From a virus, in IMG/VR virus record IMGVR_UViG_3300011115_000954, positions 1 through 25,720 of that record: a DNA stretch of 25,720 nt; one strand, 5' to 3'. The notes under the pieces were generated by a model. The model saw only the letters and a list, made by a program, of their open reading frames with translations. It had not been told where the DNA came from and ran no database searches. The number at the start of each line of letters is the position of its first letter. Position 1 is the stretch's first letter. A program made the position numbers and the translations under genes. Below, piece by piece: positions 194-25,246 of the stretch.

Positions 194-1501
194 ATGATAA
201 CATGCTTAAAATGTAATGAAAATAAAGAGAAATCTTCTTTCATAAAGAAGCTCGGAGCAAAACCATCGGTGGTTTGTTTTTCATGCTGGAAGAAGTTTTC
301 TGCAGAAAATATTGTTAACGCAGTTTGCACCAAAGACGAGTCTGGCTGTATTCTCTGGCCAGATCAGGATAGAGACCCTGATTATTATAATTACTTGAGA
401 AGAAGACTTTTTAAAAACAAAGAAGAATATATTCATGTCAGATGCAATAAGGCCTGCATGAATAGCAAACACTTCTTTTATTTTAAAACAAACTCAACAC
501 CATATTGGTTTAAATATGGCCTTAATTATGAAATTAATTTTTCAAAACCATCGGACAAGGAGATCATAGTATTAAAATCGATCCTAATGGATCGCGTCAT
601 ACGGAAGAATGATTGTTGGATCTTTGGAGAATCATCGGGTAAAAAATCCAATATTAAAATTGGTGATAATGTATTTAATTCCAAAAAAATATACTATGAA
701 ACCTTCAACTCAAAGATAGGCCAACCAATCTTTTCGATTTCTTCAGCATGTGGTGACATAAATTGCGTTTCTCCAGATCATATGACGTTATTCTTGGGAA
801 GGTCTTACCCAGTCTGGGCAAGAAAAAACTTAAAAAAACCAGATGAAGGTATGTGGTATTGTGAAGTAGAATCTTGCAGCAATCCACGAGTTCAAATTTC
901 AAACCTCCAATTGAAAAAGCATCGTGGACGCCATTTGTGTGAGGGTTGTTTTGGCTTTATTGCAACGGAATCAAAAGTAAGAAAATCAAAATATGATCTA
1001 AGATACGTTGAAGAAAACAGGAAAAGAATAAAGGAAAGATTTGAAGCCTGGTCAAAAACAGATTCCGGAAAATTATCAAAAACATTGAGCTCTCAAAACA
1101 GAAGAGATAAGGGATTGAGAAAAACAAATAAGCCTTTTCTTTCCAAACTGCTGGTGGAGTACAAAACCTGCTGTTATTGTGAAAGAGGCGTTGATGATAT
1201 CCCGGAACATCCAAACGGTACATCAAAGCTACAATTGGAGCATATAATTCCAATATCAGCAAAAGAAAGACAGGGCTCTAATGATTCTGATAACTTAGAG
1301 ATTGCCTGCTGGGAGTGCAATTCGATGAAGAGAGCCTCAACTCCAATCGAATGGCGGAGTAAAATACAGAAGAAGACCGCATCGTGCAAAGATCCTAGCA
1401 GATTGCTTCTGTACGAAAAAATAATCAAGATTCTTTTTGAAGAATCAAACTATGAAAATAATAACTTCTATCCAAGGCACATGAGAAACAATAATGTCTA
1501 A
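194..1501 (+). CDS. HNH endonuclease-like protein with several zinc-binding modules
   Basis: This 435-residue protein has a canonical C-terminal HNH nuclease core: CxxC at 326-329, LEH at 348-350, N367 and CxxC at 372-375 followed by Asn. A first Cys pair is at 4-7, and C28/C31 could complete a zinc ribbon. Two segments (about 52-99 and 141-202) resemble the HNH_3 pattern, with an aromatic strand, then Cys-x4/5-Cys-x2/3-His, but lack the first HNH histidine. Another Cys cluster lies near 223-252. The family nicks or cuts DNA and often occurs as free-standing homing endonucleases. It overlaps the dnaE start by 8 bases. No clear Shine-Dalgarno precedes ATG 194, so a downstream start is possible. 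Nuclease activity and homing at the polymerase locus are inference. Confidence 0.8.
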   Translation: MITCLKCNENKEKSSFIKKLGAKPSVVCFSCWKKFSAENIVNAVCTKDESGCILWPDQDRDPDYYNYLRRRLFKNKEEYIHVRCNKACMNSKHFFYFKTNSTPYWFKYGLNYEINFSKPSDKEIIVLKSILMDRVIRKNDCWIFGESSGKKSNIKIGDNVFNSKKIYYETFNSKIGQPIFSISSACGDINCVSPDHMTLFLGRSYPVWARKNLKKPDEGMWYCEVESCSNPRVQISNLQLKKHRGRHLCEGCFGFIATESKVRKSKYDLRYVEENRKRIKERFEAWSKTDSGKLSKTLSSQNRRDKGLRKTNKPFLSKLLVEYKTCCYCERGVDDIPEHPNGTSKLQLEHIIPISAKERQGSNDSDNLEIACWECNSMKRASTPIEWRSKIQKKTASCKDPSRLLLYEKIIKILFEESNYENNNFYPRHMRNNNV

Positions 1502-4500: not shown

Positions 4501-4874
4501 GAGAGACTCATGAAATATTTCAAGGCTTCTTTAAGGGAGGTTCCGACACTATGAAATTTAAGGACCTAAAATCTCTGAAGGTTGGGGCGAGAGTTAAGGT
4601 AGAAGGCATCGTTAAGACTCTTAGTAAGGAATTCAAGATTAAAAACGGAAAGAATATTGGCCGTAAATTTGGCAAATATCTAATCGAAGATCTAGAAGGA
4701 AATACTACCGGTCTAACTCTTTGGACCGAAGATTACGAGAAGCATATCTCCAACTTCAAGGATGGAATTCCATTTAAGGCAATTTGTCAGGTTGGAGAGT
4801 ATATGGATGAGAAATCCCTCAATCTAGTTGAGATGATGGAAATCTTTGGAATTAAAAGTCTCTCTAAAAAATAG
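1494..4874 (+). CDS. dnaE: DNA polymerase III alpha subunit (replicative C-family polymerase)
   Basis: At 1126 residues this is close to bacterial DnaE. An N-terminal PHP domain shows HxH at 10-12, TDHG at 43-46 and E70. The palm carries the metal-binding pair D430 and D432 in the PDIDSDF motif and the third aspartate D585 in KMDVLGLKTL. Fingers motifs include an RPG-like segment and GYGFNKSH at 776-783. A C-terminal OB-fold segment is near 1025-1095. It synthesises DNA at the phage replication fork, normally on a sliding clamp. The QxxΦF-type internal clamp motif expected before the OB domain is not evident, and the protein ends soon after that domain. Its ATG lies inside the end of the HNH gene, and its stop overlaps the convergent cysM-like gene. 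Confidence 0.97.
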   Translation: MSNGPFVSLHNHTSTGSVLDALNDVDELFDRAKEIDHPAIAITDHGTLTAHYDAYRASQRTGVKLIPGMEAYFAPDLSEKKSSHMVLVPKNENGYKNILRLNYEAYNNQASGYMGKMTPRISWEHIQKFNSDVFCLTACSNGLLSKDIVEDRTEKAEENLTKLHGIFGDRLFLEIQPHALKTDDSKVDQVKLNETLIGFSRKHNIPYVATCDAHYLDRDHAKYHDMMLAIKDKKPLSDPNRFRYGVQEMYLKPFNEITEFFGNHIGTIAMNNSIRIASACEEPHYLKSRGAILPQFPVRHQRDYLEFKIWWQENCEELPEDKAYLRFRCISGFQEFTDEFSSEKKKEYWNRVKYELSVLEMHNFSSYMLIVADYINWANNNEVIVGPARGSGAGSLVAFLIGITKVDPIKYNLLFERFHNKQKKSFPDIDSDFSHPDRVKAYIKEKYGKDYVAQISNWSTLSPKVVLKDVARSLEIGGDKSTAFEIANHLTSIMPDVHTIEEAISGNKEFAKFMDKYPEVKEYSIKLQNLTRQWSVHAAGVVIGDRPLYEMVPLRIGAEEDSDETVTATQWEKTRAEEFGLVKMDVLGLKTLIIISEALKYIGDTTGKKIAIDEIPLDDPATYKMISKGDNLGVFQLEASLSPLCMKIKPTDVDTVAAINALGRPSCPPEQRKAYIQRRFGIDKVRYTHPSLQNALKDTYGISLYEESMMSIARDCAGWDLNEADNLRKLTKLKGKNPELALKTEADFIKGCMDHSGMTYEQAQEVWETEIASFSGYGFNKSHAISYSIISVQTAWLKCHYPTEFMCATLNLTDPNSDGAQEYLAECKRMEIKITPPDVNKGAENYKVIGDKVIATGFAAVKGIGPAAIPELIANQPFESLCDFILKGNIITCKDDDGTETSTPALDWLETKNPLPKTCKLESHGFIGKAAMQSLAACGALDALGRTRKDIYENFDSYRTKIKNAIKKGKTLTDDDLGRPEEEWERKDLLFNERLVMGRTLSGETHEIFQGFFKGGSDTMKFKDLKSLKVGARVKVEGIVKTLSKEFKIKNGKNIGRKFGKYLIEDLEGNTTGLTLWTEDYEKHISNFKDGIPFKAICQVGEYMDEKSLNLVEMMEIFGIKSLSKK

Positions 4875-5745
4875 AAAGATATCTCTCTCCTCTATCGCAC
4901 AAGATAGTGATTGCAATTTCATCATTCTTAAGCTGATTTTTTGATAGCCATTTCTTTGCAGCAAGAGAATTTGCCCCAGCACTAATTCCAACAAAATTAC
5001 CTGTCTTTCTCGCAAGCTCTCTTGCTTCTTCCGTAGCATCCTTAGTAGAGACATGAACTATTCCATTTATAAATTTTAAATCTACTAAGAATTTACTTCC
5101 ATCACCAATCCCTTGTATTCCATGTAATCCAGGCTTTCCGCCAGCCATAACTGGTGATTCCATAGGTTCTACTGCCCAAATTTCAATTTCTGGAAATGAA
5201 TTCCTTAGGGCAGATCCAATGCCCATAAGAGTTCCTCCGGTACCAGTTCCACAGATAAAAAGCTTTGGAATGTAACCACTCAATAAGCATTGAGATATAA
5301 GTTCTGATCCAGTTTCATTCCTATGGCAATCTATATTTTGTTTGTTATGAAATTGGTTGGTAGTGAACCAGCCATTATTCTTACATAAATCATCTCGAAG
5401 CTTAATTGCTCCATCAAAATCTCCATCACCAACTAGTATAAGCTCTGCCCCGAAGCCGGCAATCATCTTTTTTCTTTCTTCGCTCATATTCTGAGGCATG
5501 ATAATCTTAATATGATATCCCTTGACTGCTCCAATCATGGCTAAGGAAATTCCCGTGTTTCCACTACTAGCCTCAACGATAATATCTCCAGGCTTTATCA
5601 AGCCATTTTTCTCTGCAGATTCAATAATATATTTCATTGGACGGTCTTTGATGGACCCTCCAGGATTAATGGACTCTAGTTTTCCATAGAGATTATCGGA
5701 AATCTTAATCAGGGGAGTATTTCCGATGCAATCTAATAAACTCAT
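4864..5745 (-). CDS. cysM: Cysteine synthase (O-acetylserine sulfhydrylase, CysM-like)
   Basis: This PLP-dependent enzyme of 293 residues makes cysteine from O-acetylserine and sulfide (CysM can also use thiosulfate). Visible motifs are IGNTPL at 7-12, the PLP lysine K33 in GSIKDR, the substrate loop SSGNTG at 60-65, the GTGTGGT phosphate-binding loop, and CDRGERYLS near the end. The NMSEER and CDRG[E/D]RYLS segments resemble CysM more than CysK. ATG 5745 is chosen because it begins the family N-terminus and has GGAG 6 bases upstream; an in-frame TTG at 5814 would add 23 unrelated residues. It is the only clear minus-strand gene and overlaps the dnaE end by 11 bases. Promoters for it and for the divergent gene at 5814 must lie in the 68 bases between them. 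Confidence 0.93.
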   Translation of the reverse strand: MSLLDCIGNTPLIKISDNLYGKLESINPGGSIKDRPMKYIIESAEKNGLIKPGDIIVEASSGNTGISLAMIGAVKGYHIKIIMPQNMSEERKKMIAGFGAELILVGDGDFDGAIKLRDDLCKNNGWFTTNQFHNKQNIDCHRNETGSELISQCLLSGYIPKLFICGTGTGGTLMGIGSALRNSFPEIEIWAVEPMESPVMAGGKPGLHGIQGIGDGSKFLVDLKFINGIVHVSTKDATEEARELARKTGNFVGISAGANSLAAKKWLSKNQLKNDEIAITILCDRGERYLSIF

Positions 5746-5813
5746 TATTTTCTCCAAATTGTTGTAAATATAAACCAAAAAATTAGTACAATTTTCCAAA
5801 AGGATGTACCACA

Positions 5814-6392
5814 ATGATCTCTTGCCAAAAGTGTGAATTTAAGATTCTTCCAAAGATGCGATTTGCATTAGTAAAAAACTTTTGCCCATCTTGCGGAGGA
5901 ACTCTTCTTTCTGACCTAGATTCTCAAGAAATTAATGCCATTAATCGAAAGCTTCAGGCTCAAGAATTTATGGTCTCTCTTTCAAATCAACTCAACAAAG
6001 ACTTAGTTCAAACTCTAATATATGATCTTAGTATTTTTATTAAGTTTGATCTTCAGAAAGAACAATCTAGGGCATTTGCAGAATTTAATTCCCAAGAAGA
6101 AAGTCCTCCCTCTCTAACCTCAGAGAGTGATGAGGATAGACCAAGGAAAAATCTCAGGCCAATCTCTAGAGCAGAATCTTCCGGCCAACCTCAACCAGTT
6201 CACTCTCGAGATATTCAAGCCTTTAGAAAGGCAATTGTGGGAGACGATGATGGCGAATCAGATGATATGGAAGACCTAGAAGATGAGCCTTCTGATGACG
6301 AAGATTCTGACGATAGAGTGAAGAGATTAAAGAAGGTTTACGCCTCGTCCCCTACCCTTAAGAAATTTGGCGGAATTTCAAGATCAGAATGA
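5814..6392 (+). CDS. Zinc-ribbon protein with acidic C-terminal region
   Basis: I do not recognise the family. The 192-residue protein begins with a four-cysteine zinc ribbon (C4, C7, C24, C27) and continues with a helical stretch to about 95. It then has a low-complexity, Ser/Pro-containing linker and a strongly acidic segment around 142-167 before a basic end. A Shine-Dalgarno-like AAAGGA lies at 5799-5804. It runs divergently from cysM and is coupled to the next gene through an ATGA overlap. Its place upstream of SSB suggests a nucleic-acid or transcription role, but that is inference only. Confidence 0.75.
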   Translation: MISCQKCEFKILPKMRFALVKNFCPSCGGTLLSDLDSQEINAINRKLQAQEFMVSLSNQLNKDLVQTLIYDLSIFIKFDLQKEQSRAFAEFNSQEESPPSLTSESDEDRPRKNLRPISRAESSGQPQPVHSRDIQAFRKAIVGDDDGESDDMEDLEDEPSDDEDSDDRVKRLKKVYASSPTLKKFGGISRSE

Positions 6393-8617: not shown

Positions 8618-10261
8618 GTGTCAAAAATTACACTCTATGGAAATGATGCGAGGGAAAAGATCCTTGTTGGTGCAAAGAAGTTAGCAAAAACCGTAGCAAC
8701 AACGATGGGTCCTTACGGAAGAAATGTGTTAATGGGTCGCGCAGTTGGCGCACCAGTGGCTACCAAAGACGGAGTCTCTGTAGCAAGAGAGGTTGTGCTG
8801 GAGGATCCTATTGAAGAATTAGGATGCCAGATGATTAAAGAAGTGGCAGGAAGAACTGCTGATGTTGCCGGTGATGGAACCACGACTGCTACAGTTCTTG
8901 CGGCAGAAATATTTGAAGGTGGAATGAAGTTAGTATCTGGAGGGGAGAGTCCAATCTACTTCCGCGATGGAATTAACTATACCTTAGCCCTCATTTTAAA
9001 AGACATTGAGTCATTTTCATTACCAGTCTCGTCCACTAAAGATCTGAGAAGTATTGCAACTATATCTGCCAATAATGACTCATCTCTTGGCGATGCTATC
9101 TCTGGAGCTTTTGAGTCAGTTGGTCGTCACGGAGTAGTTACTGCCGAAGCAACGCCAGGAAGAGAAACTCATTTTAGAGTAACTGATGGGATCGAAATTA
9201 GATCGGGTTATTGCACTCCAGCTCTTCTCAATCCAGGGGAAGACCCAATCACTCTTGAGAATCCTTATGTCCTAATCTGTGACAGAGAGATTACTCATGT
9301 TCAGGATTTTATGAAAATTCTTTCAGACCTTCATGAGTCAAACAAACCTATCCTGATTATTGCAAAGAGCATTAGACAAGAGGCCCTTCAAACTATCGTT
9401 GTTAATAGGAAGGCCGGAAGATTAAATGCCGTGGCAGTAGAATATCCAGTCTTTGGAAAATATAACGATCAGTGGCTAGAGGATCTTTCGATCCTAGTAG
9501 GAACCTCAGTTTATTCTGAAGATCGTGGGAACCCACTCTCTGAAGCTTCCGTTACAACGCTTGGTAGAGCAGAAAAGGTGAAGATTACCAGATATAGCAC
9601 CACCATTATTAATGGCGCAAAGAATGTAGAATCCATAAAAGAAAAAGAGCTTATTTACCTGTCAACCCTAGATACTGCTTTGGCTGACACAGATAGGAAA
9701 GACGTTAGGGCTCGTCTGGCCTTCCTCCAAAGTAAGGCTGCGGTGGTCTGCGTAGGCTATTCCACCGAGTCCGAGCTAAGGGAGAAGGGTGACCGCGTGG
9801 AGGATGCCGTCTGTGCCACCAAGGCCGCCGTAGAGGGCGGAATACTGCCCGGAGGTGGTACTGCCCTCCTACGTGCCGCAAGAAGGTTAGATTTGAATAC
9901 AGTGCCTCAAAACTTCAGACCTGCGGCGAGTGTCCTGAAGGCAGCTTGCGAAAAGCCATTTCATCAAATTCTTGAGAATGGATATATATCTTCCTCTGAA
10001 ATTTTGGAAAAAATTATGGCATCGGATGACCCTTGGTTTGGGTATAATCTAGTAACCCAAGAATCAGGCAACATGCTTGATCTTGGGGTGGTGGACCCTA
10101 AAAAAGTAACTGAAACTGCTCTAAAAAATGCAGTAAGTGCAGCACTACTTCTTATTAATACTGAAGCTGTAATGGCAGAAAATCCTAATAAGCCTTCTGG
10201 CTGGCAAAGTCCCGCAGGTTGGAGGCCACCCTCTGATTCTAACCTAAACCATAAATATTGA
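8618..10261 (+). CDS. groEL: GroEL-like group I chaperonin
   Basis: This 547-residue subunit shows the chaperonin core: MGPYGRNV (30-37), TKDG (49-52), the ATP motif GDGTTT (85-90), RVEDAVCATKAAVEGG with the hydrolytic aspartate, GGG in the intermediate domain, and a C-terminal DLGVVDP segment. The ATPase residues look intact. It should form a ring that folds phage proteins in an ATP-driven cycle. The usual GGM-repeat tail is replaced by a Pro/Trp/Asn-containing tail. No groES is present in the window. GTG 8618 is chosen because AGGAG (8607-8611) is 6 bases upstream and the N-terminus matches the family. Coding sequence around 9781-9840 is unusually GC-rich. Confidence 0.96.
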   Translation: MSKITLYGNDAREKILVGAKKLAKTVATTMGPYGRNVLMGRAVGAPVATKDGVSVAREVVLEDPIEELGCQMIKEVAGRTADVAGDGTTTATVLAAEIFEGGMKLVSGGESPIYFRDGINYTLALILKDIESFSLPVSSTKDLRSIATISANNDSSLGDAISGAFESVGRHGVVTAEATPGRETHFRVTDGIEIRSGYCTPALLNPGEDPITLENPYVLICDREITHVQDFMKILSDLHESNKPILIIAKSIRQEALQTIVVNRKAGRLNAVAVEYPVFGKYNDQWLEDLSILVGTSVYSEDRGNPLSEASVTTLGRAEKVKITRYSTTIINGAKNVESIKEKELIYLSTLDTALADTDRKDVRARLAFLQSKAAVVCVGYSTESELREKGDRVEDAVCATKAAVEGGILPGGGTALLRAARRLDLNTVPQNFRPAASVLKAACEKPFHQILENGYISSSEILEKIMASDDPWFGYNLVTQESGNMLDLGVVDPKKVTETALKNAVSAALLLINTEAVMAENPNKPSGWQSPAGWRPPSDSNLNHKY

Positions 10262-20728: not shown

Positions 20729-23575
20729 ATGAATGATTTTAAGCAAAAAGAAAAAGAAAGTTTTGATCAAATAAAAAGTTCTTTCTTAGATTTTGATCCT
20801 GCATTTTTTATTGAGAATAATTTAACAATAGATGGCAGTGAGTTCAAAATTATTGGTAATGGTTGGAAGTTTATGGTCGATGTTTATCGATACATTGGGC
20901 TTCAAGCTACTCAAAAGGTAGGAAAGCCAGTTGTAATAAAAAAGGGTCGTCAGGTTGGTGCAACTATGATGGCAGCAGCTATCGATCTTTTTTTTACAAA
21001 TAGTGGACTCTTTCACAAACCACCCATCAGAGTTCTTCATGCTTTTCCATCCCTTGGGCAGGTAAAGAAATTTTCTCAAGATAAATTAGAAGGATTTGTT
21101 AGAACTTCTAAAAATGGATTTATTTCAAAAAATAAACTTGATAAAAATTCTGTTGATAATTTAACAATGAAGCAATTTAAAGATGGAACTCTTTGGGTTG
21201 ATAGCATTGGTGAGGATGGCGATAGAATCCGTGGTATGACTGTTGACGCTATCTTTTTTGACGAATGCTTTCCATATGAAACCTACATAGAAGTTGAGGG
21301 TGGAAAAATTCAAATTGGAGAAGTCTTTGAATTATTTAGTGCGGGCTCAGAAATTCCTCTTATAAAGAGCTATAATGAAAAGCTTGATATCTTTGAATAC
21401 AAGAAGATCAAAAATGCATGGAATCGCGGAGAAAAAAATATAATAGAGCTTCAACTTGGAAATAGAACAATAAGATGCACCCCAAATCACAAGTTTCTCA
21501 CTACCAGTGGGTGGATTGAGGCTAGAAATCTAAGAATTGGAAGCTTGATTATAACATCTCCATCGACCAAGACTTTTGTCCGAGACCTTAATTCTGATCA
21601 ACTACAAATTGTTCTTGGCTCATTCCTGGGTGATGGTCATATTGATAGTATTAAAAACAATAAATATAGATTAAGTGTTACACATGGCATAGATCAATCA
21701 GAATATTGTCTCTGGAAAGCATCTTTTTTTGATTCAAGTATAGTTAATATTAATAAAAATGGATTTTCTGAAAGTTCAGCTATAAAATTTACTACAAAGT
21801 CATTTGGATTAAGCGGTAACTTTCCAAGCACTAAATCAACATGCCCTCAGTGGGTGCTGGACTCAATAGATGCTAGGGGGATGGCAATATGGTTTATGGA
21901 TGACGGATCTATAAAAAGATGGAATAATTCTGGATCTGGGTGCATTTCAACCTGTTCTTTTGATGAGGACTCTCAAAAAAGATTTGTTGAAAAATTTAAT
22001 TCTCTTGGAATAAAATCACATTATAAAAAATATAAAGCTAGCAATGGTAATGAGTATTTTTCAATTTATCTTAATAAGGATGGATTTAAAAAACTTTCTA
22101 AATTAATTGCTCCATATATTCATAATAATATTTCTTATAAAATTTTAAATGATGAAGATGTTATAAAATATGAGTGGAACGAGCCAAATAAAATAACCGG
22201 ATTAACATCGGTAGATTCTATAAAATATCTCTCTGAAAAAAAAATAGTTTATGATATTGAAGTTGAAGATAATCATAACTTTATTGTTACAACATCAAAA
22301 ACAAGCAAAAATCTTGGAGGAGTAATAGCGCATAATTGTCAAGATATGTATGCTACTGCCATTGGTAATGCCACAAAGACTCTTACTGCTGCAAAATACG
22401 GTCCCGTAGGTCAAGGTGTCCAAGTTTATTTCGGAACACCAAAAGAAAAGAATAGTTATTTCTCCTCTTTGTGGGATATGTCAGATCAAAGATACTATCA
22501 CCTTGGCTGCAAAAATTGCAAAGAAACATTTCCATTTTATCTTCCAGATGATAAAAGATGGATGGATATTTGGGTATCTGGACATACAATAAAATGTCCA
22601 CTCTGTGCTTGCGAACAGCATAAGATTGAAGCAATAGAACGTGGAAAGTGGGTGCCAAGCAGAAACCCCGACGAGTGCAAGCTTGTCGGATTTCATATTA
22701 ATCAATTATATATTCCATACTTTACAAAAGAAAATATTCTAAATCTTATGCCGGAAAATAACCCACTGCAAACAGAAAGAATATTTAAAAATGAAGTTGT
22801 TGGCGAATTCTTCTCCGGCGCAGGTCTTCCTATCACTAGAGCAGAAATTTATGAAAAATGTCGTGATGCAGATCGTGCATTTTCAAGATCAATTAATCCA
22901 AGAGAAAAGTCATCTTATCTTGGAGTAGACTGGGGTGGTAAGGATGATGGTAGCGATAGTAACGTGGGTCAATCTTATTCTTGTGTAGTAATTCTTTCTG
23001 CCCTTCCGGACGGAACACTATTGGTAGAACATGCCCACAAGCTAAGGAAGCAAGACTTTGATTATAAGAAAGAAACTATTCATGAGATGTATAAAAGATT
23101 TGGAGTAAAGCAAGGCCTATCAGACTGGTTTTTTGGACAGGATGTAGTCCACGATCTTCAGCGTCATTATGGCTCAAAGTTCTTAGGAGCACAAGGAAGC
23201 GGCAACCTTCTAAAACCATTAAAGTTTAGAGAAGATGAGCTTATAGTATCTTATAATAAAGATATGATGGTTGAAGAGATTTTTGATCTATTTAGAAAAG
23301 GAAAAATTAGATTTCCCTGGAAGAGCTTTGAGTATATAGAGTGGCTCATTGATCATTGTACCTCTATGGAATCCTCCATCAGAACTATTGGTGGTCAACC
23401 GGTAAAGACCTATATTAAAGGCCCAAGCCCAAATGACGGATTAATGGCACTGATGTATGCCTATATGGCCTATAAATTTGACGCAACCAAGGGTTTTTCT
23501 ATTAAACCTGGTATAAATGGTAATGAACAGTCTGCGCCTAAGCCAATATTAGCACATCTAAAAAGAAGGATATAA
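20729..23575 (+). CDS. terL: Large terminase subunit (GpA-type) with an in-frame intein
   Basis: The ORF encodes 948 residues, of which 180-536 are an intein, leaving a 591-residue terminase. The N-terminal ATPase has the deviant Walker A KKGRQVGATM, with the lysine before rather than after the glycine, as in lambda GpA relatives, and Walker B AIFFDE (174-179). After the intein come a zinc-ribbon-like segment (CKNC, then CPLCAC), and an RNase H-like nuclease with D734 in GVDWGG and D903 in NDGLMALMYAY. The enzyme cuts concatemeric DNA and drives it through the portal, encoded next. Splicing would join FFDE to CQDM. No Shine-Dalgarno is evident before ATG 20729. Confidence 0.93.
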   Translation: MNDFKQKEKESFDQIKSSFLDFDPAFFIENNLTIDGSEFKIIGNGWKFMVDVYRYIGLQATQKVGKPVVIKKGRQVGATMMAAAIDLFFTNSGLFHKPPIRVLHAFPSLGQVKKFSQDKLEGFVRTSKNGFISKNKLDKNSVDNLTMKQFKDGTLWVDSIGEDGDRIRGMTVDAIFFDECFPYETYIEVEGGKIQIGEVFELFSAGSEIPLIKSYNEKLDIFEYKKIKNAWNRGEKNIIELQLGNRTIRCTPNHKFLTTSGWIEARNLRIGSLIITSPSTKTFVRDLNSDQLQIVLGSFLGDGHIDSIKNNKYRLSVTHGIDQSEYCLWKASFFDSSIVNINKNGFSESSAIKFTTKSFGLSGNFPSTKSTCPQWVLDSIDARGMAIWFMDDGSIKRWNNSGSGCISTCSFDEDSQKRFVEKFNSLGIKSHYKKYKASNGNEYFSIYLNKDGFKKLSKLIAPYIHNNISYKILNDEDVIKYEWNEPNKITGLTSVDSIKYLSEKKIVYDIEVEDNHNFIVTTSKTSKNLGGVIAHNCQDMYATAIGNATKTLTAAKYGPVGQGVQVYFGTPKEKNSYFSSLWDMSDQRYYHLGCKNCKETFPFYLPDDKRWMDIWVSGHTIKCPLCACEQHKIEAIERGKWVPSRNPDECKLVGFHINQLYIPYFTKENILNLMPENNPLQTERIFKNEVVGEFFSGAGLPITRAEIYEKCRDADRAFSRSINPREKSSYLGVDWGGKDDGSDSNVGQSYSCVVILSALPDGTLLVEHAHKLRKQDFDYKKETIHEMYKRFGVKQGLSDWFFGQDVVHDLQRHYGSKFLGAQGSGNLLKPLKFREDELIVSYNKDMMVEEIFDLFRKGKIRFPWKSFEYIEWLIDHCTSMESSIRTIGGQPVKTYIKGPSPNDGLMALMYAYMAYKFDATKGFSIKPGINGNEQSAPKPILAHLKRRI
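21266..22336 (+). mobile_element. Intein with LAGLIDADG homing endonuclease in terL
   Basis: The 357-residue insert begins with Cys180 and ends with His535-Asn536, followed by Cys537, the residues needed for standard protein splicing. Block A (CFPYETYIEV), block B (CTPNHKFLTT, His254) and block F (VYDIEVEDNHNFI) are clear. Two LAGLIDADG helices appear as LGSFLGDGH (296-304) and IWFMDDGS (387-394), each with an acidic catalytic residue, so the endonuclease looks intact. The insertion is directly after the Walker B glutamate, a highly conserved site that suits homing. Confidence 0.95.
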
Positions 23576-23578
23576 CAA

Positions 23579-25246
23579 ATGAGAAGAACTGATAGGCCTC
23601 CTAGTGATATTAGCAAATTTGCAGCATCACAGGTTTCGGAAGTGAGAAGAGCTGAAATTACAAATGCTGTTAATCGTCAACAGGATTCTAGAGATATTTC
23701 TAAAGCATCTGCAGTAGTTGCTAACAGTCCAGGATTTAAAAAGAAGGGCTCTATTGCCTCACCTATGGGGCCTCTAGGAACTACCACTAATTCTGATAGA
23801 ATGGCCCCAGAAGTCTTCTCTCCACTCTTCCTTTTGGCAAATTTAAATCTACCAAGAGACCGAGTAACGATGAATGCTTGGAATCGAATTTATTACGATA
23901 CCAACCCCATTGTTAGAAACTCAATTAACCTTCATTCCTCCTACCCCATAAGCAAGATTAATATTGCCTGTAAAAATAAAAAAGTTCAGCAGTTCTTTCT
24001 TGAATGGGCAGAAAAAATAGACCTCTATTCTATTGTCTACGGGGTAGCTCTAGAGTACTGGAAATTAGGGGAAGCATTTCCATATGCAGAGTTAGATCAA
24101 AACTCTGGAACTTGGAAGAGAATTACGATTCTTAATCCAGACTATGTTCATGTTAAAAGATCTGTTATTGGAGATCAAACTATAGTATCTCTTAGACCAG
24201 ATGCAACACTTCAGAGGCTGGTGGGATCAACAGACCCTGGAGATCTCGCAATGAAGTCGAGATTACCACCACATATTGTTGATTCTGTCCGAAGAGGACA
24301 AAACATTCCTCTTGACAATTTTAACGTATCACATCTCAAACTTTTATCTGCACCTTATGACATCAGAGGAACATCAATTATAGTTTCCGTCTACAAGGAC
24401 TTAATGCTTCTTGACAAAATTCGTGAAGCAAAGTTTGCACAGGCCGATGGAATGATTAATCCGCTCACCCTAGTGAAACTAGGTGGAGAGGACTATAAGC
24501 CAACCCAGGCTGATCTGGAGGCGTTTCGTCAGGTTCTTGAGGAAGCTCAGTATGACAAAGACTTCAAGATTGTGACTCATAATGGTGTCGATATTACCCG
24601 CGTTGGATTTTCTGGATCTACATTAGAGGTACAGTCAGACCTTGAGTTTATTATGAATAACCTTTATAACGGTCTTATGGCACCAAAAGCCCTATTTGAT
24701 TCTGAAGGTGCATCATATGCCTCATCATCTGTTGGCTTAGAAGTTCTTCGTCAAAGATATGACATCTTTAGAAATATGTTAAAAAAATGGCTAGAGAGAA
24801 AAATCTTTGCCCCAATTTGCGAACTCCAAGACTTCTTCGAGTATGTTGATGGTGAAAAAAGACTTCAGGTTCCAACTATTGACTTTAATCACATGAATCT
24901 TTATGATCTATCTGATTATATTAACGCAATTAATACTTACGTTGGAAACAAACAAATTTCTATTCAAACTCTCTGTAGAAGTCTTGGATTATCTTATGAG
25001 GAAGAGCAGAAGAGACTTAGAGAAGAATCTATCAATGAAGCAATTATCAATAAGGAGAAAGCAATCCTTAGTGGCATGAGACTTTCAGAGCTACTCTCCC
25101 TAGACCCCGATAAGGCCATCCCAGAGCCTCCAGAAGAGGTTGCTCCTGCCGAGAGTCCGGACGGTGGTGGTGGGGCTCCTCCAGGCCTTCCTGGTCTTTC
25201 TGGGCCTCCTGATGGCGGAGGATCTTCTCCACCGTCCGGCGGATAA
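23579..25246 (+). CDS. Portal protein
   Basis: The 555-residue protein has the portal arrangement. TNPIVRNSINLHSSYPI (108-124) leads to an aromatic segment in which a GEAF turn is followed by an ILNPDYVHV strand, then long helices. The central KFAQADGMINPLTLVKLG segment and the helical NNLYNGLMAPKALF region are also typical. Portals form the dodecameric ring through which terminase pumps DNA and to which the neck binds. Its place right after terL supports the call. The C-terminus (about 515-555) is a Gly/Pro-rich, collagen-like tail that looks disordered. AAGGA before ATG 23579 overlaps the end of terL. Confidence 0.88.
   Translation: MRRTDRPPSDISKFAASQVSEVRRAEITNAVNRQQDSRDISKASAVVANSPGFKKKGSIASPMGPLGTTTNSDRMAPEVFSPLFLLANLNLPRDRVTMNAWNRIYYDTNPIVRNSINLHSSYPISKINIACKNKKVQQFFLEWAEKIDLYSIVYGVALEYWKLGEAFPYAELDQNSGTWKRITILNPDYVHVKRSVIGDQTIVSLRPDATLQRLVGSTDPGDLAMKSRLPPHIVDSVRRGQNIPLDNFNVSHLKLLSAPYDIRGTSIIVSVYKDLMLLDKIREAKFAQADGMINPLTLVKLGGEDYKPTQADLEAFRQVLEEAQYDKDFKIVTHNGVDITRVGFSGSTLEVQSDLEFIMNNLYNGLMAPKALFDSEGASYASSSVGLEVLRQRYDIFRNMLKKWLERKIFAPICELQDFFEYVDGEKRLQVPTIDFNHMNLYDLSDYINAINTYVGNKQISIQTLCRSLGLSYEEEQKRLREESINEAIINKEKAILSGMRLSELLSLDPDKAIPEPPEEVAPAESPDGGGGAPPGLPGLSGPPDGGGSSPPSGG
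25157..25239. repeat. Inverted repeat at the portal 3' end
   Basis: CCGGACGGTGG at 25157-25167 is perfectly complementary in inverted orientation to CCACCGTCCGG at 25229-25239, with 61 bases between them. It lies within the GC-rich Gly/Pro coding tail just before the stop codon. It may form an mRNA stem or may reflect the biased codons of the tail. Confidence 0.5.

Follow-up and report, generated by a model that had tools for sequence, protein, structure and literature searches.

The terL gene of a viral contig carries, at positions 21266-22336, a class 1 intein inserted exactly between the Asp-Glu of the Walker B motif and a Cys+1 residue. The contig is a 25,720-base IMG/VR virus record, referred to here over its full length as the window; features lie on its plus strand unless otherwise noted, and a slash marks an intein insertion point or junction. 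In our judgment, the insert is probably a self-splicing TerL intein belonging to a motif-targeting class 1 family that has spread across ATPases by homing. More specifically, the endonuclease of this family may recognize a catalytic motif at the DNA level (Walker B, GAYGAR/NNNCAR) rather than one gene, and the family may therefore move among non-homologous ATPases, including those of a single phage genome, and supply its own +1 Cys codon wherever a site lacks one; toward this narrower proposal we lean only slightly.

Anatomy of the TerL intein

The terL open reading frame (20729-23575) encodes a 948-amino-acid precursor, a GpA-type terminase large subunit with an intein; a match to PHROG 675 identifies the host protein as the terminase large subunit, and the portal gene (23579-25246) comes next. 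The N-extein (residues 1-179; 20729-21265) contains the sequence KKGRQVGAT (residues 71-79; 20939-20965), conserved in relatives, which we take, from general knowledge of terminases, to be a deviant Walker A motif, and it ends with the Walker B motif IFFDE (residues 175-179; 21251-21265), whose DE is invariant in relatives. The intein (357 amino acids, residues 180-536) follows directly after the Glu, and the C-extein (22337-23575, including the stop codon) begins with CQDM and comprises the remaining ATPase and the nuclease domain. The junctions are E179/C180 and H535-N536/C537, the flanks are VDAIFFDE and CQDMYATA, and the joined exteins amount to 591 amino acids.

Pfam detected Intein_splicing (E = 4.7e-17) and LAGLIDADG_2 (E = 1.4e-17) in the terL frame, and removal of the insert gave a single unbroken GpA_ATPase match over residues 66-284 (E = 3.3e-16; PF05876, 60.1 bits against a cut-off of 25.6). 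NCBIfam intein_Nterm (180-258) and intein_Cterm (507-537) both scored above cut-off. The N-terminal splicing region, from Cys1 to block B, spans 21266-21502 (TIGR01445, residues 180-258), and the characteristic residues of a class 1 intein are all present: C1, block B TPNH (TxxH; residues 251-254; 21479-21490), block F YDIEVEDNHNF (from residue 508; 22250-22282), and block G IAHN (residues 533-536) with the TGT codon of Cys+1 (22337-22339), together 22325-22339. The LAGLIDADG_2 homing endonuclease domain (residues 293-456; 21605-22096; Pfam and fold model) has both of its motifs, LGSFLGDG (residues 296-303; 21614-21637) and FMDDG (residues 389-393; 21893-21907), with the catalytic Asp intact in each. 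Chance is excluded as the source of the intein call. The original prediction, made from the window alone, had placed an intein with a full endonuclease at these same coordinates, immediately after the Walker B glutamate E179; the position proved exact, Pfam, NCBIfam, the splicing blocks, and the continuity of intein-free relatives agree on the intein, and the domain match and motifs bear out the complete endonuclease.

An AlphaFold2 model of the intein, built with 32 related inteins in the alignment (pLDDT 93.3, pTM 0.90), brings both intein termini together in one domain. Over the model range 1-357 it matched the Mtu RecA intein (Z 20.8, rmsd 1.7, 135 residues aligned), and its residues 97-294 matched I-SceI (Z 20.6), so that the predicted architecture is a Hint domain with an I-SceI-like endonuclease. 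The top fold matches for a model of an intein-free relative (L006) were the TerL proteins of phages D6E, T4 (gp17), and Sf6 (gp2); this model was of moderate quality only (pLDDT 70.6, with the Walker regions lower), and no distances were taken from it.

We infer the splicing reaction from these residues. The 948-amino-acid precursor would be made first; an acyl shift at Cys1 would be followed by transfer to Cys+1 and by cyclization of Asn357 aided by His356 (intein numbering). Excision would restore FFDE-CQDM and with it the ATPase center. In the unspliced protein, the Walker B loop would be broken and packaging would need splicing, a dependence already proposed from the window alone and one that fits the data gathered here.

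The G+C content of the intein is 31.0%, compared with 36.4% for the exteins (21% versus 27% at third positions). Elsewhere in the window lie a PALP-family, cysteine synthase-like pyridoxal-phosphate enzyme (4864-5814, minus strand, opposite to its neighbors), which is unusual for a phage, and a GroEL-type chaperonin (Cpn60; 8618-10261, plus strand), close to RuvC, RecA, a DnaE-type polymerase, and a primase fragment. Directly 5' of the DnaE gene, a 435-amino-acid protein with a C-terminal HNH nuclease domain (194-1501, plus strand) is possibly a second homing-type element.

The Walker B junction in unrelated ATPases

The intein site is not peculiar to the GpA terminase studied here; many TerLs and unrelated ATPases are occupied at it. 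Among viral loci, inteins were sought by conserved splicing-block patterns, independently of insertion site, and 68 of the 80 loci found (a number that includes some duplicate contigs) lay at DE/C followed by Gln or His. The window intein sits between the Walker B Glu and Cys+1, and full-length inteins related to it by at least 33% identity occupy the same Walker B junction in other GpA TerLs, UvrD-like helicases, PhoH, and ResIII-type helicases. Host families were assigned by Pfam on representatives and otherwise by similarity and motif; DE/C inteins were found in UvrD-like SF1 helicases (L023-L025, L222, L228-L230, L232, L105, L233, L111, and L342), in PhoH with or without a PIN domain (L109, L110, L210, L218-L220, L231, and L236), in ResIII-type SF2 helicases (L226, L258, and L027), and in SNF2 proteins (L028-L031), and cyanobacterial DnaX inteins likewise have a DE/C junction. 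The PhoH precursor L236 and the helicase intein L025, used as single queries, matched only themselves.

A tree of 42 full-length DE/C inteins from TerL, SF1, PhoH, and the ResIII-type L226 separated them, with support of 100/99, from seven inteins at other sites that were weaker matches from the same searches. Within the DE/C group, PhoH and TerL inteins were intermixed. The PhoH intein L236 is 64% identical to the TerL intein L198, compared with 59% to the PhoH intein L210, although the PhoH exteins of L236 and L210 are 69% identical; the helicase intein L342 resembles PhoH inteins (57% identity) more than its nearest helicase intein (44%). Four unrelated host families within one intein clade require at least three switches of host protein. 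A single clade of TerL inteins was not rejected (p-AU 0.179), and the test for a single clade of SF1 helicase inteins also fell short of significance (p 0.064); given these two results, we claim neither a number nor a direction of switches. The inteins of DnaX, SNF2, and L027 are too divergent for firm placement.

Two genomes hold DE/C inteins in more than one host protein. A 353,765-base phage record has DE/C inteins in both PhoH and TerL, and one Chitinophagales contig has a full DE/C intein in TerL (L108) and a DE/C mini-intein in a UvrD-like helicase (L342). The two inteins of each such genome show only moderate similarity (51% identity for the PhoH/TerL pair), so neither pair arose by recent copying inside its own genome.

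The DNA at the junction offers a possible basis for such movement. In the window, the predicted homing target would consist of a left half TTTTGACGAA (21256-21265, plus strand) and a right half TGTCAAGATA (22337-22346). Across the 20-bp junction, intein-free TerL and intein-free helicase alleles have an identity of 0.689, against a background of 0.292 (maximum, 0.532) for other in-frame segments, and the best TerL/helicase pair, TTTTGATGAAGTTCAAGATA and TGTTGATGAAGTTCAAGATT, have 18 of 20 bases in common. LAGLIDADG-type endonucleases tolerate mismatches, and the similarity of the Walker B DNA combined with this tolerance makes that DNA a plausible common target.

The alternative that fares best is an ordinary allele-specific TerL intein, active together with its endonuclease but homing among TerLs only; the other DE/C inteins would then stem from independent insertions, convergent on Walker B because catalytic motifs are where inteins persist best. 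Inteins are known to cluster at conserved catalytic positions in ATPases (PMC5050341, PMC2814812), and monophyly of the TerL inteins was not rejected. Nevertheless, the closest relatives of the TerL inteins are the DE/C inteins of other proteins, which have the whole architecture in common with them, while inteins at other sites fall outside; together with the intermixing of PhoH and TerL inteins, this makes the allele-specific explanation unlikely in our estimation. The tree likewise speaks against unrelated inteins having converged on Walker B, although it does not settle the matter for the highly divergent inteins of DnaX, SNF2, and L027.

Further insertions were seen in some of these genes and records. 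Five TerLs (L198, L199, L237, L244, and L328) have two inteins nine residues apart: the first has no Cys1, shows W/C/T as in class 3, and ends PTHN/T at a GR/T or GK/T site; T.D..(F/L)FDE comes next and is followed by a class 1 DE/C intein or mini-intein. The nine-residue micro-extein between them must survive two splicing reactions. The UvrD-like helicase genes L024 and L222 also have two inteins each, which in L024 lie in Walker A (GSGK/..THN/TTT) and Walker B (DE/CQDM). A portal gene in the record of the intein-bearing TerL L206 has an intein-like insert at KLRE/CFSQDTEILTDSG (L343, locus 143 onward), and so does a ribonucleotide reductase at TNP/CFPSSEYLLTKNG (L344) in the 340-kb phage record whose helicase L228 has a DE/C intein. 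Non-intein LAGLIDADG genes with 26-31% identity to the intein endonuclease domain occur at L329 and in the records of L209 and L108, in each case alongside DE/C inteins; these free-standing genes are possibly sources or descendants of the intein endonuclease.

Intein-free alleles and a proposed homing cycle

A scan of viral contigs yielded nine intein-free TerL loci, and a wider scan yielded 69 intein-free TerLs. The nine are 67-97% identical to the exteins and run without a gap across the FFDE/CQDM junction, so that the alignment proposed as a check in the original prediction came out in favor of an insertion. Two facts change the meaning of that first reading, namely that the family occupies the motif in other proteins and that most intein-free alleles do not have the +1 Cys. 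At the +1 position, the 69 intein-free TerLs have Val (44), Ile (14), Cys (5), Phe (5), or Met (1), that is, Val or Ile in 58, and 41 intein-free helicases have Val (19), Ile (17), Cys (2), Leu (1), Tyr (1), or Thr (1). All intein-bearing TerL alleles have Cys. In the nearest intein-free relative, L005, whose TerL is 95-97% identical to that of the window, the nine bases 5' of the junction and the three codons after +1 are the same as in the window, whereas the +1 codon is GTG instead of TGT. With Val or Ile prevalent in intein-free alleles and Cys in every occupied one, co-conversion of the +1 Cys codon along with the intein is the probable history in most lineages. The five intein-free TerLs with Cys+1 may be targets that already had the nucleophile, or may be sites from which an intein was precisely lost.

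Occupied and intein-free alleles are interleaved in the TerL tree, and at least nine changes of state are needed. TerLs are found at each predicted stage of a homing cycle: empty, full, apparently endonuclease-dead, and mini-intein. The endonuclease motifs are intact in the window, L004, and L018, but in L002 and L003, near-twins of L018, GDG has become GAG and DDG has become DNG; the inteins of these last three all end in Ser-Asn. Mini-inteins without an endonuclease occupy the same site in L026, L235, L237, L239, L241, L242, L244, L246-L250, and L256. TerL intein identity and extein identity are partially correlated (r = 0.54); for the window and L099, the exteins are 73% and the inteins 51% identical.

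The proposed mechanism would account for this pattern as follows. In an intein-free allele, the LAGLIDADG domain would cleave the Walker B DNA, roughly TTYGAYGAR/NNNCARGAY; the break would then be repaired from an occupied copy, and the intein would enter along with its own Cys+1 codon (TGT or TGC), which would replace that of Val or Ile. Near-identical DNA in several P-loop ATPases would allow the family to spread at this junction among TerL, UvrD-like helicases, PhoH, and ResIII-type helicases, and each site would pass through invasion, endonuclease decay, a mini-intein, and an empty site again. Cutting and repair, as well as homing as the route between families, are read here from sequence comparison.

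An independent contig, L004, carries the same insert at 98% identity. Between the two, the intein dN/dS is 0.10 and the exteins are under purifying selection; with the splicing and endonuclease residues intact, the earlier statement that splicing and homing look active holds at the level of the sequence. Third-position divergence is alike in the intein (0.092) and the N-extein (0.095), at about 0.09, and rises to 0.226 in the C-extein, which is responsible for the difference in dS between the whole extein (0.42) and the intein (0.17). The step at the C-extein possibly marks a conversion tract but fits ordinary recombination equally well. A recent intein sweep between the window and L004 was not adopted, since ordinary recombination is an equally good fit.

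A domesticated intein, whose splicing is kept to time packaging through a redox or infection-stage switch rather than for selfish ends, would fit a site that disables the ATPase until splicing has occurred, and Cys at both junctions could give redox-sensitive splicing; one study reports conditional splicing in other inteins (PMC6195587). Yet the patchy presence of the element, the intein-free L005 at 95-97% identity, and the intactness of the endonuclease favor selfish behavior, and we regard a regulatory role as very doubtful. We give almost no credence to a dead intein or assembly artifact with packaging by another TerL, for which a 25.7-kb fragment leaves room elsewhere in the genome, in view of the intact splicing residues, the low dN/dS, the same insert in L004, and the purifying selection on the exteins.

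Relation to known inteins

It has long been an open question how an intein gains access to a host protein new to it, and in the usual picture one site belongs to one set of orthologues (PMC2814812). The near-identical short targets described here, with empty alleles, mini-inteins, and dead endonucleases at hand, make motif-targeted ectopic homing directly testable, and the replacement of Val or Ile by Cys suggests that the nucleophile need not pre-exist at an intein target. Inteins in TerL were already known; judged against the open-access literature, what is new is one class 1 family at one motif across host proteins, and in that literature we found no description of a DE/C intein in GpA TerL, PhoH, or SF1 helicases. 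Swithers et al. (2009) described same-site inteins of orthologues as closely related, with relations across hosts largely unresolved (PMC2814812).

In mycobacteriophages, seven intein sites have been described in the TerL ATPase domain, of which TerL1-e is at Walker B; five tested TerL inteins spliced, and the two tested for cleavage cut intein-free TerL DNA (PMC5050341). Inteins in those phages were confined to terminase_1, terminase_6, and one terminase-like family, TerL1-c and TerL1-e are class 3 inteins related to mycobacterial DnaB-b inteins, and TerL1-d is related to a RecB intein (PMC5050341), so that movement between different proteins has precedents. Like the window intein, TerL1-e interrupts Walker B in a phage TerL; however, TerL1-e is a class 3 intein, with no position-1 nucleophile and a WCT triad, in a terminase_1 protein, whereas the window intein has Cys at position 1 and a block F (YDIEV) without Cys, which sets it apart from class 3, and is a class 1 intein in a GpA-type protein, whose kin include inteins that interrupt this motif in helicases and PhoH. 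Its best PDB sequence match is the Spirulina DnaX mini-intein (PDB 7cfv), and cyanobacterial DnaX proteins have the same junction, IDE/C..HN/CHML (L113, L122, L131, L155, and L185), but the host is DnaX, the one DnaX intein scanned (L122) is a mini-intein with no LAGLIDADG_2 domain, and DnaX inteins are distant in the splicing-domain tree. The inteins of T5-like phage DNA polymerases and of a phage RNA ligase are also class 1 and match over nearly the full length at 24-27% identity, but they have other insertion sites and fall outside the DE/C clade. I-SceI and I-WcaI have the endonuclease fold in common with the window intein but are intron encoded, have no splicing domain, and cut an unrelated target.
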